Assembly: GCF_002159335.1 (NCBI RefSeq)
Contig: NZ_NFHP01000003.1
Span: 248,001-312,000, forward strand
DNA from: Collinsella sp. An7
GTDB taxonomy: Bacteria > Actinomycetota > Coriobacteriia > Coriobacteriales > Coriobacteriaceae
DNA: 64,000 nucleotides
Direction of reading: 5' to 3'
Part shown: positions 1-22,159 of the stretch, one piece after another
Numbering within the stretch: position 1 is the stretch's first letter
Layout: each line of letters opens with the position of its first letter
Notes under the pieces: generated by a model
Seen by the model: the letters and a program-made list of their open reading frames with translations, nothing else
What the model was told of the DNA's origin: nothing
The model's database searches: none
Position numbers and translations under genes: made by a program

Positions 1-761
1 TTGTCGCCGGACTTGCCCTTGCGCATCTCGCTACCCTTCGCGCGCGATATGGCGCTGATGGCCACCACCGCCACGCCCGCCCGGATGGCGGCGAGGTTGA
101 CGGCGCGCACGGAGTCGCGCAGCGCCTCGGTCTCGTCCTGCCCCGGAAGCGCGTCGATGCACTGAAGGTAGTCGAGGAAGAGCACGCGACCGCCGTGGGC
201 ACCGGTGCTCCGTATCTCCTCGCAGATGTACACGAGGTTGCTCGCGTTCCCGTCGCTGATGGCGTCCACGATGCGCAGGTTCGGGCAGCGGACCATCAGC
301 TCGATGTCCGCCGAGTACACCGGGTCGTTCGCCGGCTCGTACGTCCCGTCGGCTATCGCCGCCGCCTGCTTGCGCCCGAGCTCCTCGAAGTCCGCCCAGT
401 GCCACGGCTCCAGCCCGTCGAGCACGTAGGAGAGCCGCGAGCCCATGCGGGCGCGCACCTCGGGCATCCCGAGCTCCAGAGATACGTACGTCACGCCGGT
501 TGGCCGCCCCGTGTCCGGGTCCGTCGACTGGGCCATCCTTTCGGCGAGCCACAGGCAGAAGGCGCTCTTGCCAGCGCCCGTGGTCCCGCCGATGAAGTGC
601 ACGCCGGGGCGGAAGCCCCCGTGCAGCATGCGGTCCAGCTCGGGGATTGTCGACGGGACGGGCTGCTTCGAGCTGGTGTAGGCGCTGAGGTAGTCGCCCA
701 TCTTCTCGCCGACGTTCCAGAAGGCGGGCGCGGGACGCATCATCGACTCGTGCGCCTTCAC
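1..761 (-). CDS. DnaB-like replicative helicase (RecA-fold ATPase), 3' end beyond window
   Basis: This is a phage or prophage replication ATPase whose C-terminus lies outside the window. The GTG start at 759-761 overlaps the stop of the upstream gene by four bases (GTGA). A Walker A motif GGTTGAGKS sits near residues 58-66. It is followed by VTYVSLELGMPE, like the DnaB H1a region, and a Walker B/H3 motif FLDYLQ near residue 165 followed by a conserved AISAISRAKGSEM stretch. These match the DnaB C-terminal domain; the N-terminal DnaB domain is absent, as in many phage helicases. The winged-helix gene directly upstream probably supplies origin binding or helicase loading. A RadA-like or Gp4-type ATPase is a less likely alternative. 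Confidence 0.8.
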   Translation of the reverse strand, partial: MKAHESMMRPAPAFWNVGEKMGDYLSAYTSSKQPVPSTIPELDRMLHGGFRPGVHFIGGTTGAGKSAFCLWLAERMAQSTDPDTGRPTGVTYVSLELGMPEVRARMGSRLSYVLDGLEPWHWADFEELGRKQAAAIADGTYEPANDPVYSADIELMVRCPNLRIVDAISDGNASNLVYICEEIRSTGAHGGRVLFLDYLQCIDALPGQDETEALRDSVRAVNLAAIRAGVAVVAISAISRAKGSEMRKGKSGD

Positions 762-1270
762 ACTATCCTCCTTGCGATCTCGGCGCTCATCGCGCCGTAG
801 TCGAATCTCTCGGCGCTGGGCCGCCCCTCGCTAGAGGGGGCGGCACAAGCGCCCTCTAGTAATCTAGTGGGGTTGGCTGAGGCACTTACCCTTTGGGAGT
901 GCGAGACACTACCCTTTCTAAGTGCCTCAGCCGACCCTTTCTCATTAATGGGTTGTCTGGGCGGATACCCTTTACCGCGCGGCATCAAGATGTACTTCTG
1001 GGCCTTTCCGCGATGAGAGTAGCCCGATTTCACAATCATCCCTTTACGTCGTAGCGCTTGGATTGCGTCGCGCACGGTAAACTCGCTCACGCCCAATATC
1101 TCGGCCATCTCTGTGCGGGGCCGACACGACTCGAACTGGCCCTTGCTGTTGCGCTCCATGTTCGCCGCGAGGAGCAGCATGACGCGCTCCTGCGTGCCGG
1201 AGAGACCGGCCTCGGCCCACTCGGCTATCCACGGCTCGAACGCCCGCGCGAAGCGCGTCTGCCTGCTCAC
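758..1270 (-). CDS. Winged-helix phage replication protein (initiator/helicase-loader type)
   Basis: This 170-residue protein starts at a GTG that overlaps the nuclease stop codon by four bases. Residues about 5-100 read as a winged helix: SGTQERVMLLLAANMERNSK, then RPRTEMAEILGVSEFTVRDAI with a wing GMIVKSGYSHRGKAQKYIL. This layout is typical of phage replication proteins that recognise an origin and recruit a DnaB helicase, and the next gene encodes such a helicase. The C-terminal part is low in recognisable motifs and may be the helicase contact region. Start choice rests on the GTGA coupling. Origin binding is inferred from gene order. Confidence 0.7.
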   Translation of the reverse strand: MSRQTRFARAFEPWIAEWAEAGLSGTQERVMLLLAANMERNSKGQFESCRPRTEMAEILGVSEFTVRDAIQALRRKGMIVKSGYSHRGKAQKYILMPRGKGYPPRQPINEKGSAEALRKGSVSHSQRVSASANPTRLLEGACAAPSSEGRPSAERFDYGAMSAEIARRIV

Positions 1271-1728
1271 TGTTCGTATCTCACCCCCAGCAGGTCGCTC
1301 ACGATCCGGGCGGTCTCGCGCCGGTCGCAGAACATGAACCGCGCGCCGTGCCGCTCGTGCAGCGCGTCCAGAATCTTGCGGAGCTGCGGGCCGTTCATCG
1401 GCTTGCGGCGCTTGGCGCGGCACTCGTCGGTGAGCGGGTTGCAGCGCCGGCACCGGCGGCACACCCCGCTCACCCACGTCTCGATGAGCTCCGGCCGCTC
1501 GTACTCCGGGTGCTCCTCCACGAGGATGACCAGCACCTTGCCGTCCGCCGTGGCCCGGTCCAGCTCCCGCACGAACCGGTCGTGGTCGCGCCCGACGTTG
1601 CCCGCGAGCTCCTGCACGTCCCTCTTGGTGTCCACGAGGTAGCGCGAGCCCTCGGCCCAGTAGTCGCCCGTATCGAGCTTTCGCCGTTCCACCGCGACGC
1701 CGTGGGCGGCCCACCATGAGTGCTTCAC
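1267..1728 (-). CDS. ERCC4-type phage nuclease
   Basis: From the first canonical start (GTG at 1728) the protein has 153 residues. It carries the ERCC4/XPF nuclease core: ERRKLDTGDYW, then LVDTKRDVQEL, corresponding to the GDY...ERK...D active site. A cysteine cluster CRRCRRC...C near residue 90 may bind zinc. In the same frame immediately upstream of the GTG, without a stop, lie the codons for VIYEDTRQQ (1744-1770). That is the usual first strand of this fold, including the conserved D-x-R. The true start may therefore be a rare ATC or GTC near 1765-1770. The role is probably processing of branched DNA during phage replication or recombination. Confidence 0.8.
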   Translation of the reverse strand: MKHSWWAAHGVAVERRKLDTGDYWAEGSRYLVDTKRDVQELAGNVGRDHDRFVRELDRATADGKVLVILVEEHPEYERPELIETWVSGVCRRCRRCNPLTDECRAKRRKPMNGPQLRKILDALHERHGARFMFCDRRETARIVSDLLGVRYEQ

Positions 1729-1777
1729 GGCGTGCCGCCCGCGCTGCTGCCTCGTGTCTTCGTAGATGACCGCGCCG

Positions 1778-2341
1778 CTAGAAGGGGATGTCCTCGGAAT
1801 AGGTGGACAGCTCGGCGTCGGTGATGGGAGCGGCCTTGGCGTCTCGGTCGTCCTTGGTCTGTGGGGCGGGAAAGTCGCCCTCCTTGATGGCCTGCACCGT
1901 GCAGATGTGCTGCAAGTCGACGGCGGTGCGGTCCTTGCCCTTGGCGTTCCCGCGCTGCCCGGTGTAGAGCCGGTGGCGGAGGACCATGCCGACCCACTTG
2001 CCGGCGAGCGTCTGCTCGGCGCCGTCGCGGCTCGCGTCGTAGCGGAAGCCCGCGTTGCCCTCGCTCTGCTCGATGCACTCGACCAGCATCTTGTAGCGCT
2101 GCCAGCCGAAGTCGCTGGTCAGGTAGAGCTTGATGGTGCGCTGCCAGTCCTGCGCGTCGGGGCCGTAGAAGAACCGGCCCTCGTCTGCGAGGTAGGGGTT
2201 GTAGACGAGCGCGAGATACGGCTTCGCCTCGTCGGTGTGGTCCTCCACCGCGTCGATGCGCACGGCGTACCCGCCCTCCGGCAGGATGCCGCCGCCACCG
2301 TTCGACGCGGTGATGCTGTCCCAGTTAGCGTTTGCCTTCAT
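1778..2341 (-). CDS. DUF669-like phage protein, probable ssDNA-binding partner
   Basis: This 187-residue protein begins MKANANWDSI and has a mid-region with W-Q-R and G-K-W-V-G-M-V patterns resembling DUF669 phage proteins. The C-terminus is acidic and ends in YSEDIPF, very like the protein-docking tail of single-stranded DNA-binding proteins (DIPF). The start overlaps the end of the upstream ATPase by 17 bases. Context between an annealing-type ATPase and an ERCC4 nuclease fits an SSB function in phage recombination and replication. Family assignment is by resemblance only; ssDNA binding is inferred from the tail and neighbours. Confidence 0.7.
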   Translation of the reverse strand: MKANANWDSITASNGGGGILPEGGYAVRIDAVEDHTDEAKPYLALVYNPYLADEGRFFYGPDAQDWQRTIKLYLTSDFGWQRYKMLVECIEQSEGNAGFRYDASRDGAEQTLAGKWVGMVLRHRLYTGQRGNAKGKDRTAVDLQHICTVQAIKEGDFPAPQTKDDRDAKAAPITDAELSTYSEDIPF

Positions 2342-2996
2342 CCTTGCGTTCCTTCCCGCCGCGCTTCTTCGCGGCATCGTCGGTGAGGGGCGCCATGCCC
2401 CAGTACTCGCGAATGAGCCGGTCGACCTCCTTGAGGTCGTTGTCCATGGTCCCGGGGAGCATCCCCATCGGGGCCTTCGCCATGTTGGCGCCATCGTTCT
2501 CGGTGACGAAGACGTGCCTTCCGTCGCGCACCTCGCAGTCGATGAGGACGGGCACGGCGCCCTCGATGCCGAACTTCTCATCGAGCATGCGCCCAACGGT
2601 GCGAATCTTCTCGTGGCCGTTGGCGTCCAGCTCTGGGTGCATAAAGAGGTAGGTGATGCAGTCCTCCGGAGCGAGCACCGTGGCGCTCTTGATGAGCTCT
2701 TGGAAGTTGACGGCCATGTCCGTGAATTTTCCGTAGCCGGTCTCGCGGGCCCGAGCGAAGTTCTCGAGGCTCATGAGGTACCCGGCGTCGTCGACCACCC
2801 ACGCGCGGCGCTTTCCGCTCGTGATGCACGCCCTGATGGTGCGGTAGTCCTGCGTGTTGGTGGAGTCCAGCTTCTTGCGGAATGGCAGCGGCTTGCCCAT
2901 GACGTTCAGGATGCCGACCTCGCCCGGCTCGAAGTTGCGCAGCGACGTGCTCTTTCCGCTTCCAGATTTGCCGAGGACGATGACGCACACGCCCAT
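2325..2996 (-). CDS. AAA/RecA-like phage ATPase (Sak4-like recombination ATPase)
   Basis: This is a 223-residue P-loop protein with Walker A GKSGSGKST at residues 9-17 and a Walker B-like AWVVDD near 65-70. Residues following these (SLENFAR, ELIKSATVL, TYLFMHPE) match phage ATPases often annotated AAA_24, a group that includes Sak4-type single-strand annealing proteins. The lysine- and arginine-rich tail (KKRGGKERKDEGKR) may contact DNA. ATG at 2994-2996 overlaps the upstream stop by one base; a GTG one codon earlier is also possible. Pairing with the SSB-like gene downstream supports a recombination role, which is inferred. Confidence 0.72.
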   Translation of the reverse strand: MGVCVIVLGKSGSGKSTSLRNFEPGEVGILNVMGKPLPFRKKLDSTNTQDYRTIRACITSGKRRAWVVDDAGYLMSLENFARARETGYGKFTDMAVNFQELIKSATVLAPEDCITYLFMHPELDANGHEKIRTVGRMLDEKFGIEGAVPVLIDCEVRDGRHVFVTENDGANMAKAPMGMLPGTMDNDLKEVDRLIREYWGMAPLTDDAAKKRGGKERKDEGKR

Positions 2997-3217
2997 CACT
3001 CCACCCCCGCCCTGCTCATGACCTGCCCGACGAACTCCGCCGGGTCGATGCCATCCCCGTCGGCCACGATGGCGCGCAGCGACGCGGCGGCGCCCATGAG
3101 GTAGGTGGAGCCGCCCGGGTCTCCGTCCGTTATCTCCTTAGCGCGTATCTCCAGCGCCCCGGCGCACCGCTCGAGGGTGCCCCGGTCGCAGGAGAAGCGC
3201 CAGCCGCTATAGCCCAT
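2996..3217 (-). CDS. Small phage early protein, unknown function
   Basis: This 73-residue product begins MGYSGWRFSCDRG and ends GQVMSRAGVE. I do not recognise a family. It is predicted helical with no membrane segment. It overlaps the neighbouring genes on both sides (11 bases upstream, 1 base downstream), so it is embedded in the coupled early operon. Its third codon positions are almost all G or C like its neighbours, supporting coding. Confidence 0.6.
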   Translation of the reverse strand: MGYSGWRFSCDRGTLERCAGALEIRAKEITDGDPGGSTYLMGAAASLRAIVADGDGIDPAEFVGQVMSRAGVE

Positions 3218-3428
3218 CGTCGCCGTCCTCCCCGTCGCCGTCGGGCTCGTCCACGGGCGACAAGTCCATAACCCCCAGCACCTCGCGGAGGCTCGGCCCG
3301 GCGTCGAGCACGTCGATCTCGTCGACGGAGCCGTCGCACATCTTGCGCACCAGCTCGGCGCGCTCCGGGTCCTCGAAGGCCACCGCCGGGCGGTAGCTTG
3401 CCGAGGTCACCACGTACACCTTTTTCAT
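3207..3428 (-). CDS. Small acidic phage early protein, unknown function
   Basis: This 73-residue protein starts MKKVYVVTSASYRP and ends in a very acidic tail (DEPDGDGEDGDDGL). The N-terminus resembles a single beta-alpha unit. The acidic tail could mimic DNA or dock to a basic partner, but that is speculation. A GGAGAG Shine-Dalgarno precedes the ATG. It overlaps the following gene by 11 bases and the preceding one by 4. Confidence 0.6.
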   Translation of the reverse strand: MKKVYVVTSASYRPAVAFEDPERAELVRKMCDGSVDEIDVLDAGPSLREVLGVMDLSPVDEPDGDGEDGDDGL

Positions 3429-3607
3429 CTGCTCTCCTCTCCCGCCACCATGCGCCGGGCGGCCTCAACCGCCTCGCGGTAGGTGGCATCCGGCCCCACG
3501 GGGACCGGTATCCGTATCCTCACGCCGTGGGCGGCGTCGTACGTGCACCCCTCGACGGGCACGGGCAGCTCCCAGCGCCCGGTGGAGGGGTTGCGCTCCG
3601 GCGTCAC
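3425..3607 (-). CDS. Small phage early protein, unknown function
   Basis: This 60-residue product begins MTPERNPSTGRWELPVPVEG and ends REAVEAARRMVAGEESR. Its first part looks like a short beta hairpin and the second like one amphipathic helix. No known domain was recognised. ATGA overlaps at both ends tie it to the coupled operon and support the start. Confidence 0.6.
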   Translation of the reverse strand: MTPERNPSTGRWELPVPVEGCTYDAAHGVRIRIPVPVGPDATYREAVEAARRMVAGEESR

Positions 3608-3711
3608 CTCGTCACCGCCCAGAGTCCCCAGCTGAGCCAGATGCCGACCCGCCAGAGCGCGGCGGCGAGGAGGGCGAGGGCCGCGTAGCGCACGACCTTG
3701 CCCGCCTCCAC
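3604..3711 (-). CDS. Small membrane protein (single TM helix), phage early region
   Basis: This is a 35-residue reading frame starting at GTG 3709-3711. Most of it is one hydrophobic segment (ALALLAAALWRVGIWLSWGL). Its stop overlaps the next gene's ATG in an ATGA junction, the pattern used through this operon. Third codon positions here are nearly all G or C in this frame. The frame is open further upstream, and a good AAGGAGG lies before an ATG at about 3837, so a 78-residue form cannot be excluded. The overlapping gene at 3612-3809 has the better codon pattern upstream of 3712. Confidence 0.45.
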   Translation of the reverse strand: MEAGKVVRYAALALLAAALWRVGIWLSWGLWAVTR

Positions 3712-3809
3712 TCCACGTACTCCTTCATGAGCTCGGGGTCCGCCATCGCCTCCAGGCACGCCTCGTACAGCGCGTGCGAGACGGTCAAGGGCACCCTCGG
3801 CGACCCCAT
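3612..3809 (-). CDS. Small phage protein, unknown; reading frame shifts near 3712
   Basis: Starting at ATG 3807-3809 with a GGAG seven bases before it, this frame encodes MGSPRVPLTVSHALYEACLE and on to MADPELMKEYVEW with strongly GC-biased third positions. After about 3712 the composition becomes serine/proline/arginine-rich, typical of an out-of-frame stretch, and the coding signal moves to the frame of the overlapping membrane protein. Either two genes overlap, or a one-base shift has split or fuses one protein. Function is not recognised. Confidence 0.45.
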   Translation of the reverse strand: MGSPRVPLTVSHALYEACLEAMADPELMKEYVEWRRARSCATRPSPSSPPRSGGSASGSAGDSGR

Positions 3810-3941
3810 GGCAGCTCCATTCCTCTGCTGGTACAATCATCCATGACCTCCTTCTGGTCGGGCTCTCGCGGGCAGCTTGCAGGCATCCGCGAGGGCTTTT
3901 CTCTTGTAGATGCGACGGACCGCCCCTCCGGGCGCGCACGC

Positions 3942-4133
3942 TCAGCGCGGTGCGTGCGGGCCGTTGAAAGGAGAGGGCGCGGCCCTCCCGGCGGTGATGG
4001 GCTCCTGGTGATGCCTCGGTAAGCCATGGGCTAGCTCTTCTTCGCCCTTTACGTGTGCGCCCGGGGCGACGGTCCGTGTGATTTCGCCGGCCTCCCACCG
4101 GCCCGTGTCTGACGTGGATGTATCGGCTCTCAC
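3942..4133 (-). CDS. Possible small phage protein, weakly supported
   Basis: This is a GTG-initiated 63-codon frame beginning VRADTSTSDTGRWEAGEITR. Codon third positions are moderately GC-biased and the first 45 residues look protein-like. The ribosome site (GGTGAGG) is weak and no family is recognised. It would be the first gene of the coupled early operon. It could equally be leader RNA. Confidence 0.3.
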   Translation of the reverse strand: MRADTSTSDTGRWEAGEITRTVAPGAHVKGEEELAHGLPRHHQEPITAGRAAPSPFNGPHAPR

Positions 4134-4690
4134 GCCTCACCGCCGGACGTATCCGGTCGTTCCGCAGGCGGGCGCGTCGCCCGTCCACTCGCGCCCTCCT
4201 CGGGCGCTCATGCCGTCCGAACCGGCGCGCTTCCGCGCTACGGCGACGGCGTATTGCTCCGCCCGGCGGCGCGCCGTTCCTGCCGCGCCACGTGCCGGTG
4301 GATTGTCAAGGTGCCGTTCATCCAACCGGATACGCGATGGGGTGGCTTCGTGCCGTAGAATCAAGGCGTCCGATTGATTGCCGGAGATTGGAGGTCTCTT
4401 TTGAAGGCAGTTTTGAGGACGCGGTCCCTCCGTAACGGGTAGCGCCGCGCGAGCCCGGGCAGCTCGAAGGCGACTCACCGAAGGCCGCGTTGCGGAGCGG
4501 CGTCGAACCGGCTGCGCGGGAGCGCATCGGAGGCCGCACGGCCGAAGGGGGCGACCCGAACGGGACGCCCGCCGGCAAGTGCAGGTGGAGGGAGAAGGGC
4601 CCGGTGCCGGGGCGATGGCTGCCGCAACAGCCGGAGCCCCGGTGCCATCCCATCGCGTATCCGGTTGTCAAGGTGCTGAAAAGGATGTGC
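4134..4690. other. Non-coding, structured prophage intergenic region with inverted and direct repeats
   Basis: No convincing gene was found in these 557 bases. An 18-bp inverted repeat pairs 4324-4341 with 4649-4666. A 12-bp direct repeat TTGTCAAGGTGC occurs at 4303-4314 and 4665-4676. A strong hairpin lies at 4607-4642: CCGGGGC pairs with GCCCCGG around an inner GGCTG/CAGCC stem with a six-base loop. The region separates replication genes from the immunity module, where phages often place an origin, leader RNA or regulatory RNA. Function is unknown. Confidence 0.5.
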
Positions 4691-4846
4691 CTAACTCTCG
4701 CGCCTCAGCATGTTTCTGACGTCAACCAGGTACGAGAGGCAGAAGCACAGGAGCATCGCGCAATAGGTGACACTTTGTTCTTCACCGGTAACCGAGTGGA
4801 GAACAAATATCGCGATGCCCAGCAGAATCCAAAGCGTGCTTATCAA
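4691..4846 (-). CDS. Small two-helix membrane protein (TTG start)
   Basis: This 51-residue protein starts at TTG 4844-4846, seven bases after a strong AGGAGG site (about 4853-4858). It has two hydrophobic segments, about residues 4-19 (TLWILLGIAIFVLHSV) and 27-42 (TYCAMLLCFCLSYLVD), joined by a short polar turn GEEQ, and ends RNMLRRES. It follows the Cro-like gene on the same strand, so it should be an early lytic or exclusion-type product. No family is recognised. A holin-like or superinfection-exclusion role is only a possibility. Confidence 0.6.
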   Translation of the reverse strand: MISTLWILLGIAIFVLHSVTGEEQSVTYCAMLLCFCLSYLVDVRNMLRRES

Positions 4847-4876
4847 GCGTTTACCTCCTATCTCCCCGCTGCGGCG

Positions 4877-5212
4877 CTACTCGCCCTCCTCCACCTCCGC
4901 TCGCATCTCGGCGAGCGTCTTGTAGAACACCGGAGGAACGCCGACCTCGTCGAAAACGTCCTCGATCGCATTGAGGTTGGAAAGCCGTTCCTCGCGCTCA
5001 GTAGGCAGGTCGCCATCGGATTCGAGCAGGTATTCGAGGCTCGCGTCCGGGAAAAACGCATCCCGAATCTTCTTCGCTTCGCTGACCGTCAGCGGAATGC
5101 GCTCGTTCATCTTCAAGGAGACGTTGTTCACGGACATATCGAGCAACTCGGAAACCTTTGCATAGCTAACGCCGCACCTCTTGAGTTCGGCTTTGATGTT
5201 TTGATAGGCCAT
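4877..5212 (-). CDS. Cro-like HTH protein of the prophage switch
   Basis: This 111-residue protein starts at ATG 5210-5212 behind GGAGGTG. Residues about 5-50 (NIKAELKRCGVSYAKVSELL, then MSVNNVSLKMNERIPLTVSEAKKIRDAFF) form an XRE-type helix-turn-helix; the remainder is acidic and helical. It is divergent from the S24 repressor gene across a 132-bp region with palindromic operators. It is therefore the natural Cro counterpart that favours the early operon. Assignment is by position and fold; no specific family was recognised. Confidence 0.75.
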   Translation of the reverse strand: MAYQNIKAELKRCGVSYAKVSELLDMSVNNVSLKMNERIPLTVSEAKKIRDAFFPDASLEYLLESDGDLPTEREERLSNLNAIEDVFDEVGVPPVFYKTLAEMRAEVEEGE

Positions 5213-5344
5213 CTTCACCTCCAATCACGAAATATCGTGTTGTTGGGAACAATATATACGAGCTTTCGTAGTTTGTAAATACGATATTCACGAGAAATTA
5301 GAATTGGATAGAATGATTGTACGAAGCTTCGGAAGGAGGCCATC
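5213..5344. promoter_or_regulatory. Divergent promoter/operator region of the prophage genetic switch
   Basis: Three similar palindromes of the form YACGA-N4-TCGTR are visible: CACGAAATATCGTG at 5226-5239, TACGAGCTTTCGTA at 5257-5270 and TACGAAGCTTCGGA at 5320-5333 (last half-site imperfect). Further half-sites lie at 5280-5293. A minus-strand promoter fits TTTACA (5274-5279) and TATATT (5251-5256) with 17-bp spacing, and the second operator fills its spacer. A plus-strand promoter fits TTCACG (5287-5292) and TAGAAT (5309-5314) with 16 bp, the third operator lying just downstream. The arrangement resembles a lambda-type switch; regulation is inferred. Confidence 0.7.
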
Positions 5345-6001
5345 GTGGAGACACTCGAAGAAGCCGTTAGACGCCTAATCAAATCCAGCTACGGAAGCGT
5401 CTCTAAGTTCTCAGATGTAATTGGCATCCCTGCCACGTCTATTTACAGCGCCCTTGATCGCGGCCTTGCGAACACGCGCACAGAGCTGACCGACAAGATA
5501 TATCGAGAACTTAATATCGACTGGGAAACAGCAAGGCTTGACGATGACTTTCGCGAGTTAAAGCTCAAGAGCCAGACAGCCAACCAGTTCTTCGACTGCC
5601 CCCTCTACGGGTCCATCGCAGCAGGCACCCCGATAGAGATGATAGAGATCGAGGACACCTTCCCCATCCCCTCGGAGATGCACGCCCGGTACCCGAAGGC
5701 CTTCCTGCTCCGCATCAAGGGCGAGTCGATGAACCGCGTGCTCCCGAACGGCTGCATGGCGCTCGTCGACCCGTGCGAGACCATCGAGTACGACGGCGAG
5801 CCGTACGCCGTGTGCGTGAACGGGTACGACGCCACGGTGAAGCGCGTGAGAGCGCTCGCCAACGGGTTCAAGCTCGTCCCGGACTCGACCGACCCCACCT
5901 ACAAGCCGGTCGTGTACGACTACGGCGTTGAGGGGACCGAGGTCATCACGGTCATCGGCCGCGTGGTGTGGTACTGCGTGCCGTTCGATTGGAGCTTCTG
6001 A
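5345..6001 (+). CDS. CI/LexA-type prophage repressor with S24 self-cleavage domain
   Basis: This 218-residue repressor starts at GTG behind AAGGAGG. Residues 1-60 form an HTH domain (SKFSDVIGIPATSIYSALDR). Residues about 85-218 are an S24/LexA autoprotease with an Ala-Gly cleavage site at 93-94, catalytic Ser in KGESMN (about 128) and catalytic Lys in DATVKRV (about 166). DNA damage would trigger RecA-assisted self-cleavage and induction, as known for the family. The C-terminal strand ITVIGRVVWY recurs as leftover fragments at 6915-6959 and 7848-7883. The stop overlaps the next gene's ATG. Confidence 0.92.
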   Translation: METLEEAVRRLIKSSYGSVSKFSDVIGIPATSIYSALDRGLANTRTELTDKIYRELNIDWETARLDDDFRELKLKSQTANQFFDCPLYGSIAAGTPIEMIEIEDTFPIPSEMHARYPKAFLLRIKGESMNRVLPNGCMALVDPCETIEYDGEPYAVCVNGYDATVKRVRALANGFKLVPDSTDPTYKPVVYDYGVEGTEVITVIGRVVWYCVPFDWSF

Positions 6002-6909
6002 TGTGCGGGCCGGAGGATATCAAGGGGATCGTCGAGGCCGGCAGCCATGTCCTGTCAGGTTCGAGCAAGTTCATCGACTCGCTGTGCAGGATTCGACCGG
6101 GCCTTGCCATAGCGAGCGAGGCGCGCGGCATCGCGAGCGCGAACGATGTGCTTCTCGACGCGATGGAGGAGACAGTCAGGCGATGCAGAAAAATGGGCTT
6201 TTCAGAGAGCGCGACAACCGGCATGTGCATGAGGCTCGCAAACGAGTTCAGCAAGTCGGAAAACCTTTCAAGCTGCCTTTCATTTGCACAAGAGATGGTA
6301 GGCAGCGACTACGATGCGAGCGGGATTGACCACGGCTGGTTCATCAGATGGTCAGACGGCGCGGCTGAGCAGACGGATAACGAGATGTGCGTGATATGGG
6401 GAAAGCTACTCGCAGGTGAGCTGGACCAGCCCGGCTCGTACTCCAAGCGCACGATGTCAGTCCTCGCCGACATGAGCGCACACGAGGCATCGCTGTTCGC
6501 GAATCTGTGCTCCACATCGATTTATGTGAAATCGCGCGGAGTAAAGACGCTGTTTGCTGTTCTAGCAGACGACGTGTTGGGCGGTGACACCTTTAACGGC
6601 GAACTTCTTTCAATCACCGATTTAGACGACCTCGCCGCTATCGGACTCATCACAACTTCCACCTGGACGAGCCAGGGGCTTCCTGGAAAGACCTCATACA
6701 CATTGGAGCTTGACGATAGATCAGCTGTGATAACCAATCCCAATGAAGATTGCAAGGCATTTGTTTTCTCGCACATGAGGTACCTGCAGGAGGGAATGGA
6801 GCTTGCGTCGCTCTGCGAAATCGGTACGTTTAACAGACTCAAAGAAGCCATTGATAAGGTCGTTACCCGTGCAGGTCTCGCTATTGAGTGGACAGACCAT
6901 TCCCGTTAA
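6001..6909 (+). CDS. DUF2806-family protein, prophage accessory
   Basis: This 302-residue protein starts at ATG 6001, one base overlapping the repressor stop, behind TTGGAGC. The central motif MCVIWGKLLAGELDQPGS followed by SKRTMSVLADMSAHEASLF matches DUF2806 proteins, commonly found in phages and mobile islands. The N-terminus lacks a signal peptide and the rest looks soluble. Its position directly behind the repressor, cotranscribed in the lysogen, suggests an immunity or exclusion role, but no activity is known for the family. The sequence after it contains a leftover repressor 3' end. Confidence 0.75.
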   Translation: MCGPEDIKGIVEAGSHVLSGSSKFIDSLCRIRPGLAIASEARGIASANDVLLDAMEETVRRCRKMGFSESATTGMCMRLANEFSKSENLSSCLSFAQEMVGSDYDASGIDHGWFIRWSDGAAEQTDNEMCVIWGKLLAGELDQPGSYSKRTMSVLADMSAHEASLFANLCSTSIYVKSRGVKTLFAVLADDVLGGDTFNGELLSITDLDDLAAIGLITTSTWTSQGLPGKTSYTLELDDRSAVITNPNEDCKAFVFSHMRYLQEGMELASLCEIGTFNRLKEAIDKVVTRAGLAIEWTDHSR

Positions 6910-6959
6910 TCAATGGCGTCATCGTGTGGCACCAGGCGGAAAGTGATTTGGAGAGGTAG
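6903..6959 (+). pseudogene. Leftover 3' end of an S24 repressor gene (copy 1)
   Basis: In the frame ending at TAG 6957-6959 the DNA encodes PLINGVIVWHQAESDLER. This resembles the final strand and tail of S24 repressors (ITVIGRVVWY in the intact gene, VRTVGAVVWYQAGNEKE in copy 2). It shares with copy 2 the DNA stretch TCGTGTGGYACCAGGCGG. It has no start of its own. It marks a recombination junction behind the DUF2806 gene. Confidence 0.55.
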
Positions 6960-7036
6960 GGAATGGCGCCTACCTTGCGGATGAAAGGGAGCATCGGAAG
7001 CAAGATGGATACGGAGCTACTGGACGGAGGACGACG

Positions 7037-7723
7037 ATGAGCTTAAAGGGGCTTTTCGACTGGTTCAAAGAGCATTGGCTCGAGGCCGTGGGAGTCGTCT
7101 TCGGGTCCTGGGCCGCCATCCATGCCGGGGCAACCAAGATCGAAGCATTGTTCTCGACCGATCCGACTACCTTCATGCTCCTATTCTGCGCTGTGCTCCT
7201 TATCTCCTTCACGCTCGGATGGATCCTCAACCGCGAGGTCGGCAACGTCCAGCTGCGCAAGATAGAGCTCGAGCGCCGCCTCGACATGGAGGAAGAGGAT
7301 AGGCGCCACGAGCGCGAGCGTAGGAACGCAGAGGAGGACAGGGAAAGGGCACAGAGGAAGAAGGAGAAGGCCGCAAAGGCTAGGGAACTTAAGGAAAGGG
7401 AGGACCGCAGAAAATATCTTGAGGGCGAGGTGAGGCACCTTGATATCACCCAAAAAGCCGCGCTCTACCTCATTTTCACAGAGGGGTCGATGTCGTATGG
7501 TGCGCCAACCACAAGCAATTGGTATCCGGCGTCGATCTACGACGGGCACGCGGCCTTCATGGCTATGCGCTCTCTCGGTCTCGTCGACTACGAAACGACG
7601 CACGACGGATCCAACAGGTGGACGCTCACCGAAGAGGCCAGCCAGCTTTTCGACGAGAACCCAGACCTGTTGGAAGAGGGAAGGCTTTACCTCGAAGCTG
7701 ATGATGAGCCGTCAAACCACTAA
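7037..7723 (+). CDS. Membrane-anchored coiled-coil protein with C-terminal winged-helix-like domain
   Basis: This 228-residue protein starts at ATG behind GGAGG. One clear transmembrane segment lies at about residues 45-64 (TTFMLLFCAVLLISFTLGWI), with a weaker hydrophobic stretch at 16-30. Residues about 70-140 form a highly charged coiled coil (RRHERERRNAEEDRERAQRK). Residues about 140-220 resemble a small winged helix (QKAALYLIF...HAAFMAMRSLGLVDYE...RWTLTEEASQLF). It is cotranscribed with the repressor region and followed by a repressor-tail fragment. I do not recognise the family; a membrane sensor of superinfection is a guess. Confidence 0.7.
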   Translation: MSLKGLFDWFKEHWLEAVGVVFGSWAAIHAGATKIEALFSTDPTTFMLLFCAVLLISFTLGWILNREVGNVQLRKIELERRLDMEEEDRRHERERRNAEEDRERAQRKKEKAAKARELKEREDRRKYLEGEVRHLDITQKAALYLIFTEGSMSYGAPTTSNWYPASIYDGHAAFMAMRSLGLVDYETTHDGSNRWTLTEEASQLFDENPDLLEEGRLYLEADDEPSNH

Positions 7724-7766
7724 AGAAAGGGATAAACATGGAGTGCAGGAACCTGGCAGTCACCTC

Positions 7767-7883
7767 ATGCTCACGGCTGACAGCTTCTCTGAATACGAGG
7801 ACATCATCGTGACGCCCGACGACCCGCCCGTGCGGACGGTCGGCGCGGTCGTGTGGTACCAGGCGGGAAACGAGAAGGAGTGA
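7767..7883 (+). pseudogene. Leftover 3' end of an S24 repressor gene (copy 2), possibly expressed as a small ORF
   Basis: From ATG 7767 the frame encodes 38 residues ending PVRTVGAVVWYQAGNEKE, corresponding to the final beta strands of the S24 domain (EVITVIGRVVWY in the intact repressor). Only this end of the gene is present. Its TGA overlaps the ATG of a second truncated gene. The pair looks like the original junction between a repressor and its former downstream gene, later displaced by inserted genes. Confidence 0.6.
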
Positions 7884-7927
7884 TGGGCTTTTTCGACGCG
7901 TTCAAGGGAAACGAATTCAGGAGCTGA
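7883..7927 (+). pseudogene. Truncated N-terminus of a phage gene (MGFFDAFKGNEFRS), DUF4041-like
   Basis: A 14-codon frame starts at an ATG overlapping the preceding stop (TGATGG) and ends at TGA 7925-7927. Its peptide resembles the first residues of phage DUF4041/T5orf172-type proteins, which typically begin with a similar MGFFDxFK stretch. Everything after is missing and the lipoprotein gene follows. The family suggestion is from memory of the N-terminal pattern and is weak. Confidence 0.35.
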
Positions 7928-7955
7928 CTTGAAAAAACCTAGTGGAGGAAGACAC

Positions 7956-8576
7956 ATGAGAATCTATAACTTGATCGCCGTGGGAGCCGCGTTGGCAATC
8001 GTTCTGTCGGGTTGCTCCACCGCCCCCGTCGACAAGACCGAGCTACAGGACCTCTACGATGAAGCGGCCAGCATGAACATAGCTTATTCGTCTTCCGAGA
8101 GCATCGAGGAGCTTGAGGATGCGGCTGGAGACGCCAGCGACCTGCTCGATGACGAGGACGCCACCCAGGATGAGGTCACTGAGGCATCACAAAGACTTGA
8201 GGATGCGATTGAGCGCGCGGAGTCTGACACCAGCGTCGACGAGTTCACCGTGGTTGACGCGACCATGGGTCAAGACGATGGCTACGGATACGCCGAGATG
8301 TCCATCACCGTCAAGAACAACACGGATGATGACAAGGAGCTAACGGGGGTCGATGTCGCGGAGCTCGACGCGGACGGCAACATCATCAACTCGTACATGT
8401 CTTACAACAAGAACTACCAGCCGACCGTTCTCGAACCGGGGCAGACGATGGATATAAACCTCACCTGTGCGACCTCAGACGGTATAGCGGGCGTCAGGTG
8501 CACGAAATACGAGTACTCCTATTACGGGTCACCGATAATCGGCGAGCTGAGCGAACCATTCATCAAGATGTTCTAA
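7956..8576 (+). CDS. Prophage-encoded lipoprotein
   Basis: This 206-residue protein starts at ATG 7956 behind GGAGGAA. It has a lipoprotein signal peptide with lipobox VLSGC, cysteine at residue 20. Residues about 28-95 form acidic helices (ELQDLYDEAASM, then QDEVTEASQRLEDAIERAES). Residues about 100-205 form a beta domain resembling FxLYD-like extracellular modules (EMSITVKNNTDDDKELTGVD). It should sit on the outer face of the membrane. A lysogen-expressed surface lipoprotein can block superinfection, but that role is only inferred from position. Confidence 0.75.
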   Translation: MRIYNLIAVGAALAIVLSGCSTAPVDKTELQDLYDEAASMNIAYSSSESIEELEDAAGDASDLLDDEDATQDEVTEASQRLEDAIERAESDTSVDEFTVVDATMGQDDGYGYAEMSITVKNNTDDDKELTGVDVAELDADGNIINSYMSYNKNYQPTVLEPGQTMDINLTCATSDGIAGVRCTKYEYSYYGSPIIGELSEPFIKMF

Positions 8577-8694
8577 GGCGTCATGAAGGCCGTCAGTACG
8601 GACTCGGTCAAGGCATCTGAGTACGTGATGGAGCAACGCCATTCAATTGGCATAACTGGTCAAATGGCTTGCAGAAAGTGTAAGAAAGTTTGCG

Positions 8695-8822
8695 TATAGT
8701 ACAAAAAAAGTTGAGTATTCGCAGACTTATGGGTAAAGTAATGGCAGTGATACGGCCTTGGGTCTTCAAGTGAGTCCTTGGCCTGGAAAAGGGTCGCTGC
8801 CTTCGGGTTGGCGGCCCTTTTC
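8695..8822 (+). ncRNA. Structured RNA upstream of abiF-type gene (abiF RNA-like)
   Basis: A TATAGT -10 box (8695-8700) precedes about 115 bases with clear pairing potential. GGCAGTGA (8743-8750) pairs with TCGCTGCC (8794-8801), enclosing GGCC (8754-8757) with GGCC (8780-8783). A competing stem GGGTCGC (8791-8797) with GCGGCCC (8811-8817) is followed by TTTT, like an intrinsic terminator. Structured RNAs of this kind upstream of abiF genes are known from comparative genomics (abiF RNA motif). The -35 box is poor. Identity with the known motif was not tested. Confidence 0.55.
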
Positions 8823-8839
8823 CTTCTTTGGAGGCAAAT

Positions 8840-9769
8840 ATGCCCGATAGCAAGCCGTTCAAGACCATCGAAGAGCAAATCGCGATCCTGGAGTCTAGAG
8901 GGCTGATCATCGACAGCCGCGAAACGGCTCGACGGTTCCTCACGAGGAACAACTACTACTCCCTGGTCAACGGTTACAAGGAGTTCTTCCTCGATGCGAA
9001 CAAGACGAACAGGGACGTTGAGGTGTTTCGGGACGGCACGCGGTTCATCGACCTGATGACGCTCTATAACTTCGACGCGATCCTTAGGTTCTCGATGATG
9101 TACTGTCTCACGGTGGCAGAGAAGGCGCTGAAGACCGCGACCGTCCACGCCTTCTGCCAGAAGCACCGTGACCCGGAGGACTATCTGGACCCGGCGTCCT
9201 ACTGCTCAAAGAGAGACTACCGTGGCAAGAACTACACGGGCAACCTGATCAGACTACTCTCGATACTGCAGGGAATCCATGACGGGCGCGGGGAGCGAAG
9301 AGCGTACATCGAGCACTATCGCAAGAAGTACGGATTCGTACCCCTATGGGTGGCCGCAAATGCCCTGACCTTCGGCAACATGTCGCACTTCTACAGCCTT
9401 CAGAAGATATCAGTCCAGAACGAGACGTGCCATCTGATATGTCAGTCGATAGGCTCCGAGGTCATCAGCGCAAGGAAGCTCGGGGGCGTCTACTCCACGC
9501 TGACCGAATTCAGGAATACATGCGCGCACGGGGGAAGGCTCTTCTGCAAGAGGGCTGGACGACGGGAGGATAAGTCATTCGGCGACATGCTGCTTGATCT
9601 CTCCGTCATATCTGCGCCCTTCGAAATGGAGTTCGCCGTTAACAGCGTGAAAAGCGACCTCGGCGCGCTGGACAAGATCGACGGGCTCCGCTCCCTTGTC
9701 GAGAGAGAAATGGGGCTGGACAACCCCGACGTGAGAGAGCTTTTGGAATCGTACGGATTGTCTGAATAG
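8840..9769 (+). CDS. AbiF/AbiD-type abortive-infection protein (Abi_2, HEPN fold)
   Basis: This 309-residue protein starts at ATG 8840, five bases after GGAGG. The N-terminus (FKTIEEQIAILESRGLIID, then RNNYYSLVNGYKEFF) is characteristic of Abi_2 family proteins. The HEPN ribonuclease signature R-x4-H is present as RNTCAHG at residues 225-230, so an RNase mechanism is plausible. AbiF/AbiD proteins protect against phage infection by abortive infection. Being inside a prophage, it probably defends the lysogen against other phages. The structured RNA immediately upstream may regulate or inhibit it. A palindromic hairpin follows the stop. Confidence 0.85.
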   Translation: MPDSKPFKTIEEQIAILESRGLIIDSRETARRFLTRNNYYSLVNGYKEFFLDANKTNRDVEVFRDGTRFIDLMTLYNFDAILRFSMMYCLTVAEKALKTATVHAFCQKHRDPEDYLDPASYCSKRDYRGKNYTGNLIRLLSILQGIHDGRGERRAYIEHYRKKYGFVPLWVAANALTFGNMSHFYSLQKISVQNETCHLICQSIGSEVISARKLGGVYSTLTEFRNTCAHGGRLFCKRAGRREDKSFGDMLLDLSVISAPFEMEFAVNSVKSDLGALDKIDGLRSLVEREMGLDNPDVRELLESYGLSE

Positions 9770-9774
9770 CAAAA

Positions 9775-9815
9775 GCCCTCCCCTCTCATTGCTTAGCGGC
9801 GAACGAGGGGAGGGC
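9775..9815 (+). terminator. Hairpin after the abiF-type gene
   Basis: An 11-bp perfect stem pairs 9775-9785 (GCCCTCCCCTC) with 9805-9815. No T-run follows, so termination efficiency is uncertain. It separates the abortive-infection gene from the integrase pair. Confidence 0.4.
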
Positions 9816-9878
9816 GCAGAAGGGATGCGACCCCGTGGGGTACGCACCCATGACCACCTGAAAGGCGGTGGCTACATT

Positions 9879-10073
9879 ATGACACGGGATGAACTCCGCG
9901 ACGCGATCTCCTTCATGTGCGGTGCGCGCGACCTAGAGGAGTTCGCCGACCGCCTGTGGCAGGCGGTTGACATGGCGTCGGATGACCGGGACTCGATGCG
10001 CGAGGTCCTGACCGCCGCGCTCGACGCGTTGGGCGGCGTGCCGCAGGCCCTGACGGGAGGCGACGGCAGATGA
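9879..10073 (+). CDS. Small protein coupled to the integrase gene
   Basis: This 64-residue helical protein begins MTRDELRDAISFMCGARDLE and starts at ATG 9879. Its TGA overlaps the integrase ATG in an ATGA junction, so the two are translated together. The size, position and coupling would fit a recombination directionality factor or integrase accessory protein, but no motif supports this. A small hairpin, CCACC with GGTGG, covers the ribosome site. Confidence 0.6.
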   Translation: MTRDELRDAISFMCGARDLEEFADRLWQAVDMASDDRDSMREVLTAALDALGGVPQALTGGDGR

Positions 10074-11641
10074 CCCGCGCCGCGATCTACGCCCGCTTCT
10101 CCAGCGAGAAGCAGCGCGAGGAGTCCATCGAGGACCAGATCCGCGTGTGCCGGCAGTACGCCGAGCGCGAGGGCTACGAGATAGCCGCCGTCTACTCGGA
10201 CGAGGCGCGCAGCGGCACGAGCGCAGACAAGCGAGAGGGGTTCCAGCGAATGGTGCGCGACGCCCAGCGCACCGGATGGTCCGCGGTGATCGTCTACAAG
10301 ATGGACAGGTTCGCGCGCAACCGCTTCGACTCGGCGACGTACAAGGCCAAGCTGAGGCGCGCCGGTACCAAGGTGCTGAGCGCCACGGAGGGGATACCCG
10401 ACGGTCCCGAGGGCATCATCCTCGACAGCATGCTAGAGGGCCTCGCCGAGTACTACAGCGCCAACCTGTCTCAGAACGTCCTGCGCGGCATGGAGGGGAA
10501 TGCCCTGCGGTGCATGCACAACGGGGTCGCCCTCTTCGGCTATCGGAGGAACGACGACGGCACCTACTCGGTCAACGAGGACGAGGCACCCGCCGTGCGC
10601 AAGGCCTTCGCCATGGTCGCCGCCGGGGTGACGCGCGCCGAGGTCGCTGACAAGCTCAACGCCCGCGGGTACCGTACCATACGAGGGAAACTCTGGAAGC
10701 CCGATACGGTCGTGAGCCTCATACGGAACGAGAAGTACGTAGGCGTCTACAAGTGGGGCGACGTGAGGGTCGAGGGCGGCATGCCGGCGATAGTTGACTC
10801 CGCCACCTTCTCCCTGGCTAACGACGTGCTCGCACGGACCCCGAGGCGCCACAAGTCGGCATCTACCACCTACCTGCTGTCGGGCCTCATCTACGACGTA
10901 GACGGCAACCGCATGGAGCCGAACTGCGGCAGGTCGCACGGCGGGGAGTACCACTACTACTACCGCAGCCGCGCCTCCAAGCTCACCATACGCCGCGACG
11001 ACGTGGAGGGGCGCGTGCGCAGGGCCGTGGCATCGCTCATGAGCGACAGCGGCCTCATAGAGGAGATAGTCGGGCTCGTCATGGCCGAGCAGGAGCGCGA
11101 GATGGGCGTGGAGCTGTCCGAGATACAGGCCATGGAGTCCCGGATATCCGAGATCGGACGCGAGATGGACCGGCTCATCGACCTTGCCGCCAAGGGTGCC
11201 GCGCCCGACCTCATCTCATCGAAGATCGCGGAGCTCGGGCGCGAGGAGGAGTCGATTCGCTCCGAGCTTGACGACGTGCGCAAGGGTGCTCCCAAGATCG
11301 AGCCCGATTTCGTGCGCTTCATGCTCCACAGGGTCACGGAGTGCGAGGGACCGGACGCCGTCGTGCGCGGATGCGTGTCGCGCGTCGTGGTGGCACCCGA
11401 CCGTAGCGTATGGATAGGCTTCACGATCTCTCCAGACGGCACACCGCCCGACGGCACGAAGCTCATTCGCGTAAACGAGGATTTAGGACACCAGAGACTG
11501 ATAAGCCCGAACCGCATCGTCGGTCCGGGCTTTTTTCTATTACGTTCTGTCCCACCCCAGCCTTTTCGTTCGATTCCTTCTGCTGGGGCTGTACACATCC
11601 TTCTAGTAGAAAGAATCAGTCAAAATCTCCCCTCTTGTTGA
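10070..11641 (+). CDS. Large serine recombinase (prophage integrase)
   Basis: The N-terminal resolvase domain carries YARFSSEKQ with catalytic Ser at about residue 11, plus the conserved arginine and helix motifs VYKMDRFARNRFD. A recombinase domain (FGYRR...ADKLNARGYRTIRG...NEKYVGVYKWG) and a long coiled coil (about residues 350-410) follow. The usual zinc-ribbon CxxC pairs are degenerate (MEPNCGRSHGGEYHYYY). It integrates and excises the prophage by site-specific recombination. An intrinsic terminator lies inside the frame at 11503-11536. The last approximately 40 residues are read from flanking repeat DNA and are probably not part of the original protein. Confidence 0.9.
   Translation: MTRAAIYARFSSEKQREESIEDQIRVCRQYAEREGYEIAAVYSDEARSGTSADKREGFQRMVRDAQRTGWSAVIVYKMDRFARNRFDSATYKAKLRRAGTKVLSATEGIPDGPEGIILDSMLEGLAEYYSANLSQNVLRGMEGNALRCMHNGVALFGYRRNDDGTYSVNEDEAPAVRKAFAMVAAGVTRAEVADKLNARGYRTIRGKLWKPDTVVSLIRNEKYVGVYKWGDVRVEGGMPAIVDSATFSLANDVLARTPRRHKSASTTYLLSGLIYDVDGNRMEPNCGRSHGGEYHYYYRSRASKLTIRRDDVEGRVRRAVASLMSDSGLIEEIVGLVMAEQEREMGVELSEIQAMESRISEIGREMDRLIDLAAKGAAPDLISSKIAELGREEESIRSELDDVRKGAPKIEPDFVRFMLHRVTECEGPDAVVRGCVSRVVVAPDRSVWIGFTISPDGTPPDGTKLIRVNEDLGHQRLISPNRIVGPGFFLLRSVPPQPFRSIPSAGAVHILLVERISQNLPSC
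11503..11536 (+). terminator. Intrinsic terminator inside the 3' end of the integrase reading frame
   Basis: AAGCCCG (11503-11509) pairs with CGGGCTT (11526-11532) around an inner ACCG/CGGT stem, followed by a run of T. This is a textbook terminator, yet the integrase frame stays open for another 35 codons. It suggests the ancestral gene ended before this point and that the phage-host junction lies close by. Confidence 0.75.
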
Positions 11642-21653: not shown

Positions 21654-22087
21654 AGGCTCTTGTGATCAACGGCCCCAATCTCAACATGCTCGGCACCCGT
21701 GAGCCGGGCATCTACGGCACCGAGACGTACGAGACTCTCGTCGCGCTTTGCAAAGACTCGGGTCGCGAACTCGGGTTTGAAGTGGTCGAGGTCTATCAGT
21801 CCAACCACGAGGGCGCAATCATCGACAAGATCCAAGAAGCCTACGGAAGTATGGACGGCATCGTCATCAACCCGGCAGCCTACACGCACACGAGCGTGGG
21901 CATCCTCGACGCCCTCAAGGCCGTGACGCTGCCCGCGGTTGAGGTTCACATCTCGGACGTGGACGCTCGCGAGCCGTTCCGCCAGGTCTCCTATGCCGGC
22001 ATGGCCTGCTTTGCCCGCGTGACGGGCGAAGGACTTGCCGGCTACCGTCACGCACTGGAGCTGCTGCGCGACCGGCTACAGGGATAG
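21650..22087 (+). CDS. aroQ: Type II 3-dehydroquinate dehydratase
   Basis: It dehydrates 3-dehydroquinate to 3-dehydroshikimate. The 145-residue protein has NGPNLNMLGTREPGIYG with the catalytic Tyr, YQSNHEGAIIDKI, INPAAYTHTSV and VEVHISD, all typical of the dodecameric type II enzyme. It overlaps the preceding gene by ATGA and is the last gene of the operon, which thus encodes every step from DAHP to chorismate. Confidence 0.95.
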   Translation: MKALVINGPNLNMLGTREPGIYGTETYETLVALCKDSGRELGFEVVEVYQSNHEGAIIDKIQEAYGSMDGIVINPAAYTHTSVGILDALKAVTLPAVEVHISDVDAREPFRQVSYAGMACFARVTGEGLAGYRHALELLRDRLQG

Positions 22088-22088
22088 A

Positions 22089-22159
22089 TGACTCAAAATA
22101 GCCCCGTCCCCAAATGAGTCAAAAAGGGTCCGCAAGCGTAGCTGCTTGCGGACCCTTTT
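22089..22159. terminator. Bidirectional terminator between aroQ and pnp
   Basis: A 16-bp perfect stem pairs 22122-22137 with 22144-22159, with A-run and T-run flanks so it can stop transcription from both convergent genes. Just before it, TGACTCA (22089-22095) and TGAGTCA (22115-22121) flank a CCCCGTCCCC segment like the intergenic hairpins at 24977 and 30264. Confidence 0.85.

Follow-up and report, generated by a model that had tools for sequence, protein, structure and literature searches.

We report that the AbiF gene of a Collinsella prophage is preceded by a structured RNA, composed of a covarying hairpin and an intrinsic terminator, and that control region, RNA and gene travel jointly as a 1.2 kb cassette between prophages. 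The cassette lies on the forward strand of a 64,000-nucleotide stretch of Collinsella sp. An7 (contig NZ_NFHP01000003.1, positions 248,001–312,000), which is referred to throughout as the window and supplies all coordinates. Based on its likeness to characterized relatives, we consider it likely that the cassette is a prophage-borne unit combining a type III-like toxin-antitoxin system with abortive infection. The original prediction left open whether the RNA acts as a switch, an attenuator or an RNA antitoxin; by close analogy with the RCd22/AbiF pair of C. difficile, an RNA antitoxin is most likely. AbiF antitoxin RNAs are already known, as are type III operons that contain an internal terminator, from the available texts of PMC12373285, PMC12737573 and PMC5086642. 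Hence, the arrangement is known, and it is this version of the RNA that goes unrecognised by Rfam. Computed here were the protein's family and fold, the covarying hairpin and its location downstream of the promoter and upstream of the gene, the terminator and the joint transfer.

The gene (8840–9769, + strand) encodes a 309-residue AbiF/AbiD-type HEPN protein, and the prediction of such a gene with an Abi_2 domain and an R-x4-H motif is borne out by family matches, a sequence match in the PDB and the fold. The protein matches Abi_2 (PF07751) in Pfam with 125.8 bits (E 3.2e-36; curated cut-off 25.6), the PADLOC AbiD model (E 5e-47) and phrog_2158, annotated as ‘abortive infection resistance protein’ (E 1.2e-66). 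The R-x4-H catalytic motif of HEPN proteins is present as RNTCAH at residues 225–230, and its R, N, C, A and H are invariant in all 16 aligned sequences, that is, the window protein and 15 relatives. An AlphaFold2 model made from the 16-sequence alignment (pLDDT 93.8, pTM 0.88) has a helical fold of the AbiF type, in which the beta core of ToxN-like toxins was not found. When the model was compared with the PDB using Foldseek at E values up to 0.001, the sole match was 8vz6_A (E 3.6e-9, TM 0.67, 19% identity), deposited as ‘PbAbiF dimer bound to ncRNA’. The same PbAbiF chain is also the only credible sequence match in the PDB (phmmer E 2e-10), with the HEPN end aligned. PbAbiF (PDB 8VZ6; Zilberzwige-Tal et al., as cited in the available parts of PMC12373285 and PMC12737573) is thus a relative of the window AbiF in fold, a likeness seen at the protein level. 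The program-listed open reading frame begins at TTG 8828, and the start is best placed at ATG 8840, ahead of which lies the ribosome-binding site GGAGG (8830–8834, + strand).

The second element of the original prediction, a structured RNA upstream of this gene, is corroborated by covariation and by recurrence of the RNA upstream of related genes. The upstream region folds with an energy of -47.7 kcal/mol compared with -36.4 kcal/mol (sd 3.4) for shuffled sequences (z -3.3; 1 of 200 as good). AbiF relatives were collected from order-level genomes, of which 81 of 297 gave a match, and from 33 loci on viral contigs; after four short regions had been dropped, we compared 104 distinct regions upstream of these relatives. 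The AbiF-linked RNA forms sort into classes, named here A (the form in the window), B, B' and C, the last being abiF-like. Many copies in Coriobacteriia follow a common plan, in which a -10 box is followed by an invariant A, a short single strand (AGUGAU-), a hairpin termed P2, a linker, a terminator, the ribosome-binding site and the gene. Two more, distant Abi_2 genes are present in the genome of the window (G000:C13:101042-101605, L001, and G000:C1:241699-242397, L003), and a shorter abiF-like class-C hairpin upstream of L001 seemingly also serves as its terminator. The terminator hairpin of the class-B relative L068, GGAGCGGCTGCC...GTCGCTCCA, occurs as a tandem duplicate ahead of the gene.

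In the window, the class-A RNA extends on the + strand between its probable start at A8746 and position 8828, where the terminator tail ends, and contains P2 (8754–8783), the probable protein-binding element. The outer stem of P2 maintains its pairing through many different base pairs and the inner loop is near-invariant. In 21 distinct class-A sequences with hand-paired strands, from which L103, L045 and L048 were left out as repeating the same hairpin strands, 137 of 147 cells of the outer stem are paired compared with 109.2 (sd 3.7) after strand swapping, with none of 2000 swaps as high. P2 is followed by the intrinsic terminator (8785–8823), seen in the fold and kept in the alignment, whose arms 8785–8798 and 8810–8823 are followed by a T-rich tail directly 5' of the ribosome-binding site. 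A terminator-like stem had been predicted at 8791–8797 with 8811–8817; these strands are complementary, and the actual stem extends further on both sides. Since an intrinsic terminator lies between the RNA and the gene, the proposal that the region acts as an attenuator is supported. Eleven class-A RNAs, not including that of the window, were used to train a covariance model, R1, which was then searched against 99 of 145 loci plus the window. R1 recovers the held-out window RNA at 8743–8822 (29.4 bits, E 2.4e-5 in 358 kb), together with the held-out loci L006, L007, L008, L021, L036, L063, L075, L100, L106 and L138, and across the window's own genome this RNA is the sole match under E 0.05. 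A second, weaker match in the window (22077–22159, 23.3 bits) is a hairpin between converging genes and was discarded as a chance match to a terminator. An exact-pattern search of viral contigs for the RNA core returned two contigs only, both already among the known loci.

The original prediction proposed scoring the upstream RNA with the abiF model of Rfam, and on this point it failed: no Rfam family was found across the whole window at the gathering cut-off or in 8560–8900 at E values up to 10, and a search of the window's genome with RF03085 up to E 1 gave no match at any site; the window RNA is thereby ruled out as a member of that family. RF03085 reportedly originates from Weinberg 2017. 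The lack of a match does not refute the idea of a structured RNA, because the form seen here falls outside the coverage of the Rfam model. Within the same order, the regions immediately ahead of more distant AbiF genes match RF03085 weakly and below threshold (for instance in G343, G402, G289, G054, G464 and G026). That the model misses class A and yet weakly marks these distant genes indicates that class A is a different AbiF-linked form and not an overlooked copy of RF03085. Both are short hairpins with asymmetric bulges ahead of Abi_2 genes, whereas the window RNA differs by its CUCUACGUGAG-type inner loop and its separate terminator. In the part of the literature covered, no prior reports were found of the class-A form, of its variants within one order, of toxin-less copies or of AbiF RNAs in Collinsella or Eggerthella. 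Additional AbiF RNA models by Zilberzwige-Tal et al., ‘AbiF5_iter3.CM’ and ‘diverse_rna_xinsi.CM’, are named in the available text of PMC12804078 and might already include the class-A form.

Of the promoter elements, the predicted -10 box in the 120 bases before the gene does exist. There are, however, two candidates, TATAGT at 8695–8700 and TAAAGT at 8734–8739, the latter being favoured when relatives are compared. An invariant A is the seventh base past the -10 box in 19 of 25 class-A copies; in the window, A8746 is the seventh base past TAAAGT, and TTGAGT (8711–8716) lies 17 nt upstream of that box. Given the spacing in relatives, TATAGT was dropped, and the promoter is probably TTGAGT-17-TAAAGT (8711–8739, + strand) with the start near A8746; a simple consensus scan gave no promoter above its cut-off in this region of the window. 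The -35 region is spanned by an inverted repeat, AAGTTTGCG ... CGCAGACTT (8686–8729), which is possibly an operator. Its arms (AAGTTTGCG/CGCAAACTT) are perfect over 9 nt in L103 and extend to 12 nt at 92% in L054, the window copy being one base off a perfect arm. Among the 64 family genomes searched, only four, all from one genus, carry the pattern, and its four occurrences all lie at AbiF promoters. Moreover, the control region 8663–8740 is shared with two class-B modules from the same genus (L054 and L102), behind which the RNA and protein differ. The presence of one control region before two different RNA and toxin pairs in one genus suggests that RNA and toxin are swapped jointly, and their apparent exchange as one unit, with the control region staying fixed, fits a cognate RNA–protein pair.

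The location of the cassette within a prophage is evident from its surroundings. Positions 1–11641 of the window match the final part of IMG/VR record IMGVR_UViG_2788500616_000002 with 100% identity; this record terminates exactly where the serine integrase gene at 10070–11641 (+ strand; PF00239, PF07508; phrog_95 integrase, E 2.8e-97) ends, and a CI-like repressor is encoded at 5345–6001 according to Pfam and PHROG matches. Positions 8643–9824 are 97.7% identical to locus L034, on a contig of an uncultured Collinsella, over exactly that span, with diverged flanks, and the two integrases are only 60% identical at the protein level. The sharp limits of this identity define a cassette of about 1.2 kb (8643–9824, + strand) located beside integrases and comprising the control region, the RNA, the AbiF gene and a 3' terminator-like repeat. 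The last is a strong inverted repeat at 9776–9816, GCCCTCCCCTC...GAGGGGAGGGC, which is probably abiF's own terminator as well as the right edge of the cassette. No near relatives were found in plasmid and phage DNA, and protein relatives occur in 73 phage records, each with less than 60% identity.

The closest parallel is the AbiF/RCd22 system of C. difficile. As described in the accessible portion of PMC12373285, a single promoter there yields a small RNA ending at a Rho-independent terminator, with read-through into abiF; RCd22 binds the AbiF toxin and so neutralises it, both in cis and in trans, and toxicity requires R202 and H207 of the RNQCAH motif. As far as that portion describes it, the C. 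difficile system of the phi027 prophage shares with the window the prophage site, the order of promoter, RNA, terminator, ribosome-binding site and abiF, and the RNxCAH motif. In contrast, RCd22 contains two RF03085 abiF motifs and is located in a lysis module, whereas the window RNA contains a single hairpin of different form, unmatched by RF03085, and the cassette adjoins an integrase. Type III systems also have the antitoxin RNA, a terminator and the toxin gene in that order, according to the accessible text of PMC5086642. The window resembles ToxIN, CptIN and TenpIN in that a putative RNA antitoxin, a Rho-independent terminator and a toxin gene follow one promoter; however, the toxins of these systems have the beta-core ToxN fold and that of the window is a helical HEPN protein. 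No tandem RNA repeats, a criterion for type III antitoxins, were found in 8560–8860 at a minimum score of 30.

As the layout is the same as that of RCd22/AbiF and of type III systems, its best reading is an RNA antitoxin followed by a leaky terminator. According to this model, the promoter at 8711–8739 alone would produce a short RNA from near A8746, most transcripts would end at the terminator 8785–8823 and build up as RNA antitoxin, and some would read through the leaky terminator into abiF, keeping the RNA in excess of the toxin. The RNA, chiefly through P2, would bind the AbiF dimer and block the HEPN RNase site. Phage infection or another stress may then disturb the supply of RNA, so that free AbiF would cut RNA and growth would stop. 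RNA binding, neutralisation, toxicity, RNase activity and phage defence are properties that we infer for the cassette from its relatives.

A different use of the same elements was implied by the original prediction, which described a nested stem (8743–8750 with 8794–8801) competing with the terminator. As a two-state switch, the 5' end would pair with the 5' arm of the terminator and thereby allow read-through, unless a protein or ligand holds the 5' end. The two stems are exclusive on paper and the eight pairs are complementary, but with a start at A8746 three of them lie outside the RNA and only five are transcribed. In alignment A2, which holds 24 of 28 class-A candidates (L113, L109, L110 and L117 were left out), 85.9% of the cells of the full 8-pair stem are paired compared with 82.4% (sd 1.3) in shuffles, 5 of 500 being as high. 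This signal does not come from the five transcribed pairs, which are almost invariant and show no covariation (114 compared with 113.9); a modest signal comes from the three outer pairs, which precede the likely start, with 90 of 10,000 shuffles as high for 24 rows and 274 of 10,000 for 21 rows. In favour of a switch, complementarity between the 5' region and the terminator arm is greater within an RNA than across copies, with a mean of -9.68 compared with -7.71 kcal/mol (sd 0.29) and 0 of 5000 trials as strong over 51 pooled RNAs, although this test mixes classes and sequence relatedness may inflate its result. By set, the corresponding counts are 0 of 5000 for 33 dereplicated RNAs, 3 of 5000 for class A, 318 for class B and 166 for class B', and the preference is thus weak within B and B'. 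Also, 23 of 24 copies retain a U.G wobble in the terminator, as expected for a strand common to two helices. For a transcript beginning at 8743, the alternative stem would prevail until the terminator is finished; for one beginning at A8746, this stem is weak. The terminator beats a forced alternative stem by 10 kcal/mol with the former start and by 20 kcal/mol with the latter, and as modelled the alternative stem is at most transient. The covariation split and the energies led us to downgrade the 8-pair stem as an established helix. Given the likely start at A8746, a transcribed stem portion that does not covary and a far more stable terminator, support for the two-state switch is weak; it may be wrong, and we regard it as unlikely.

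Also improbable, in our view, is that the RNA is solely a cis-acting attenuator, a terminator leader that limits abiF expression and is not bound by the protein. A strong intrinsic terminator directly before the ribosome-binding site is what such a leader would present, and in the available text of PMC12373285 the C. difficile RNA reduced expression in cis via transcription termination. However, a plain terminator would need no covarying P2 with a near-invariant inner loop, and the whole RNA persists in toxin-less copies. That the cassette is a decayed, functionless prophage relic is highly improbable: some related loci are clearly broken (L159 and L170 are remnants, L171 is split and L173 is short), but the window gene is a full 309-residue frame with every family-invariant residue, and its cassette recurs at 97.7% identity at a second locus with different flanks.

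Returning to the RNA antitoxin, it is opposed by the missing match to RF03085, the family of the tested RNA, by class-A matches that have no AbiF frame and by AbiF relatives that have no clear RNA. In 294 genomes of the order, R1 gave 37 matches of at least 29.4 bits, 21 of which lie directly before an AbiF frame, two of these frames being broken or short; this linkage speaks for the antitoxin reading. The other 16 have no AbiF frame alongside; two precede AbiF remnants (L159 and L170) and 14 show no trace of the gene by tblastn, one of which, L162, may by eye retain the first residues of an AbiF frame downstream. Another of the 14, in L120, is located approximately 240 bases upstream of a different AbiF module with its own class B' RNA. 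Among the 20 matches of at least 60 bits, 12 are linked to AbiF, one precedes a remnant and seven have no AbiF, bearing in mind that the AbiF-linked matches over 60 bits are nearly all training sequences or near copies of them. The toxin-less class-A copies with 60–92 bits are L155, L160, L161, L163, L178 (G364:C34:84695-84779), L162 and L120:76-155. As read by eye, P2 is fully paired in the toxin-less L160 and L163, and L161 and L172 look decayed. L155 is flanked by genes labelled by eye as a HigA/ImmA-type-like regulator on one side and AAA-ATPase-like on the other. Conversely, 13 AbiF relatives (L116 and L122–L133) have a promoter-like box near the gene and scant sign of a folded RNA upstream, with fold z scores mostly near chance (-3.1 to 1.2) compared with -6.8 to -2.5 for class A. 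The AbiF family does therefore not always need this RNA upstream, and any RNA of these 13 relatives must be located elsewhere.

The toxin-less copies are the only unexpected outcome, and loss of the toxin before the antitoxin explains them simply. A more speculative and rather doubtful possibility is that the class-A RNA is a transferable antitoxin, with solitary copies retained in cells or on mobile elements to act as RNA decoys against prophage AbiF, and with a 5' end that may, through competition with the terminator, detect free toxin. If this were true, solitary class-A RNAs would be the RNA counterpart of solitary ‘anti-addiction’ antitoxins. In either case, the toxin-less copies raise the question of whether such RNAs also serve as stand-alone protectors.

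Within one bacterial order, related AbiF proteins are accompanied by visibly different RNA forms (A, B, B' and the abiF-like C). Together with the two RNA and toxin pairs found behind one control region, this allows cognate recognition to be tested directly. According to the available parts of PMC12737573 and PMC12373285, it has been proposed that Cas13 descends from AbiF, and the range of RNAs recognised by AbiF proteins hence bears on how a fixed antitoxin RNA turned into a guide RNA.
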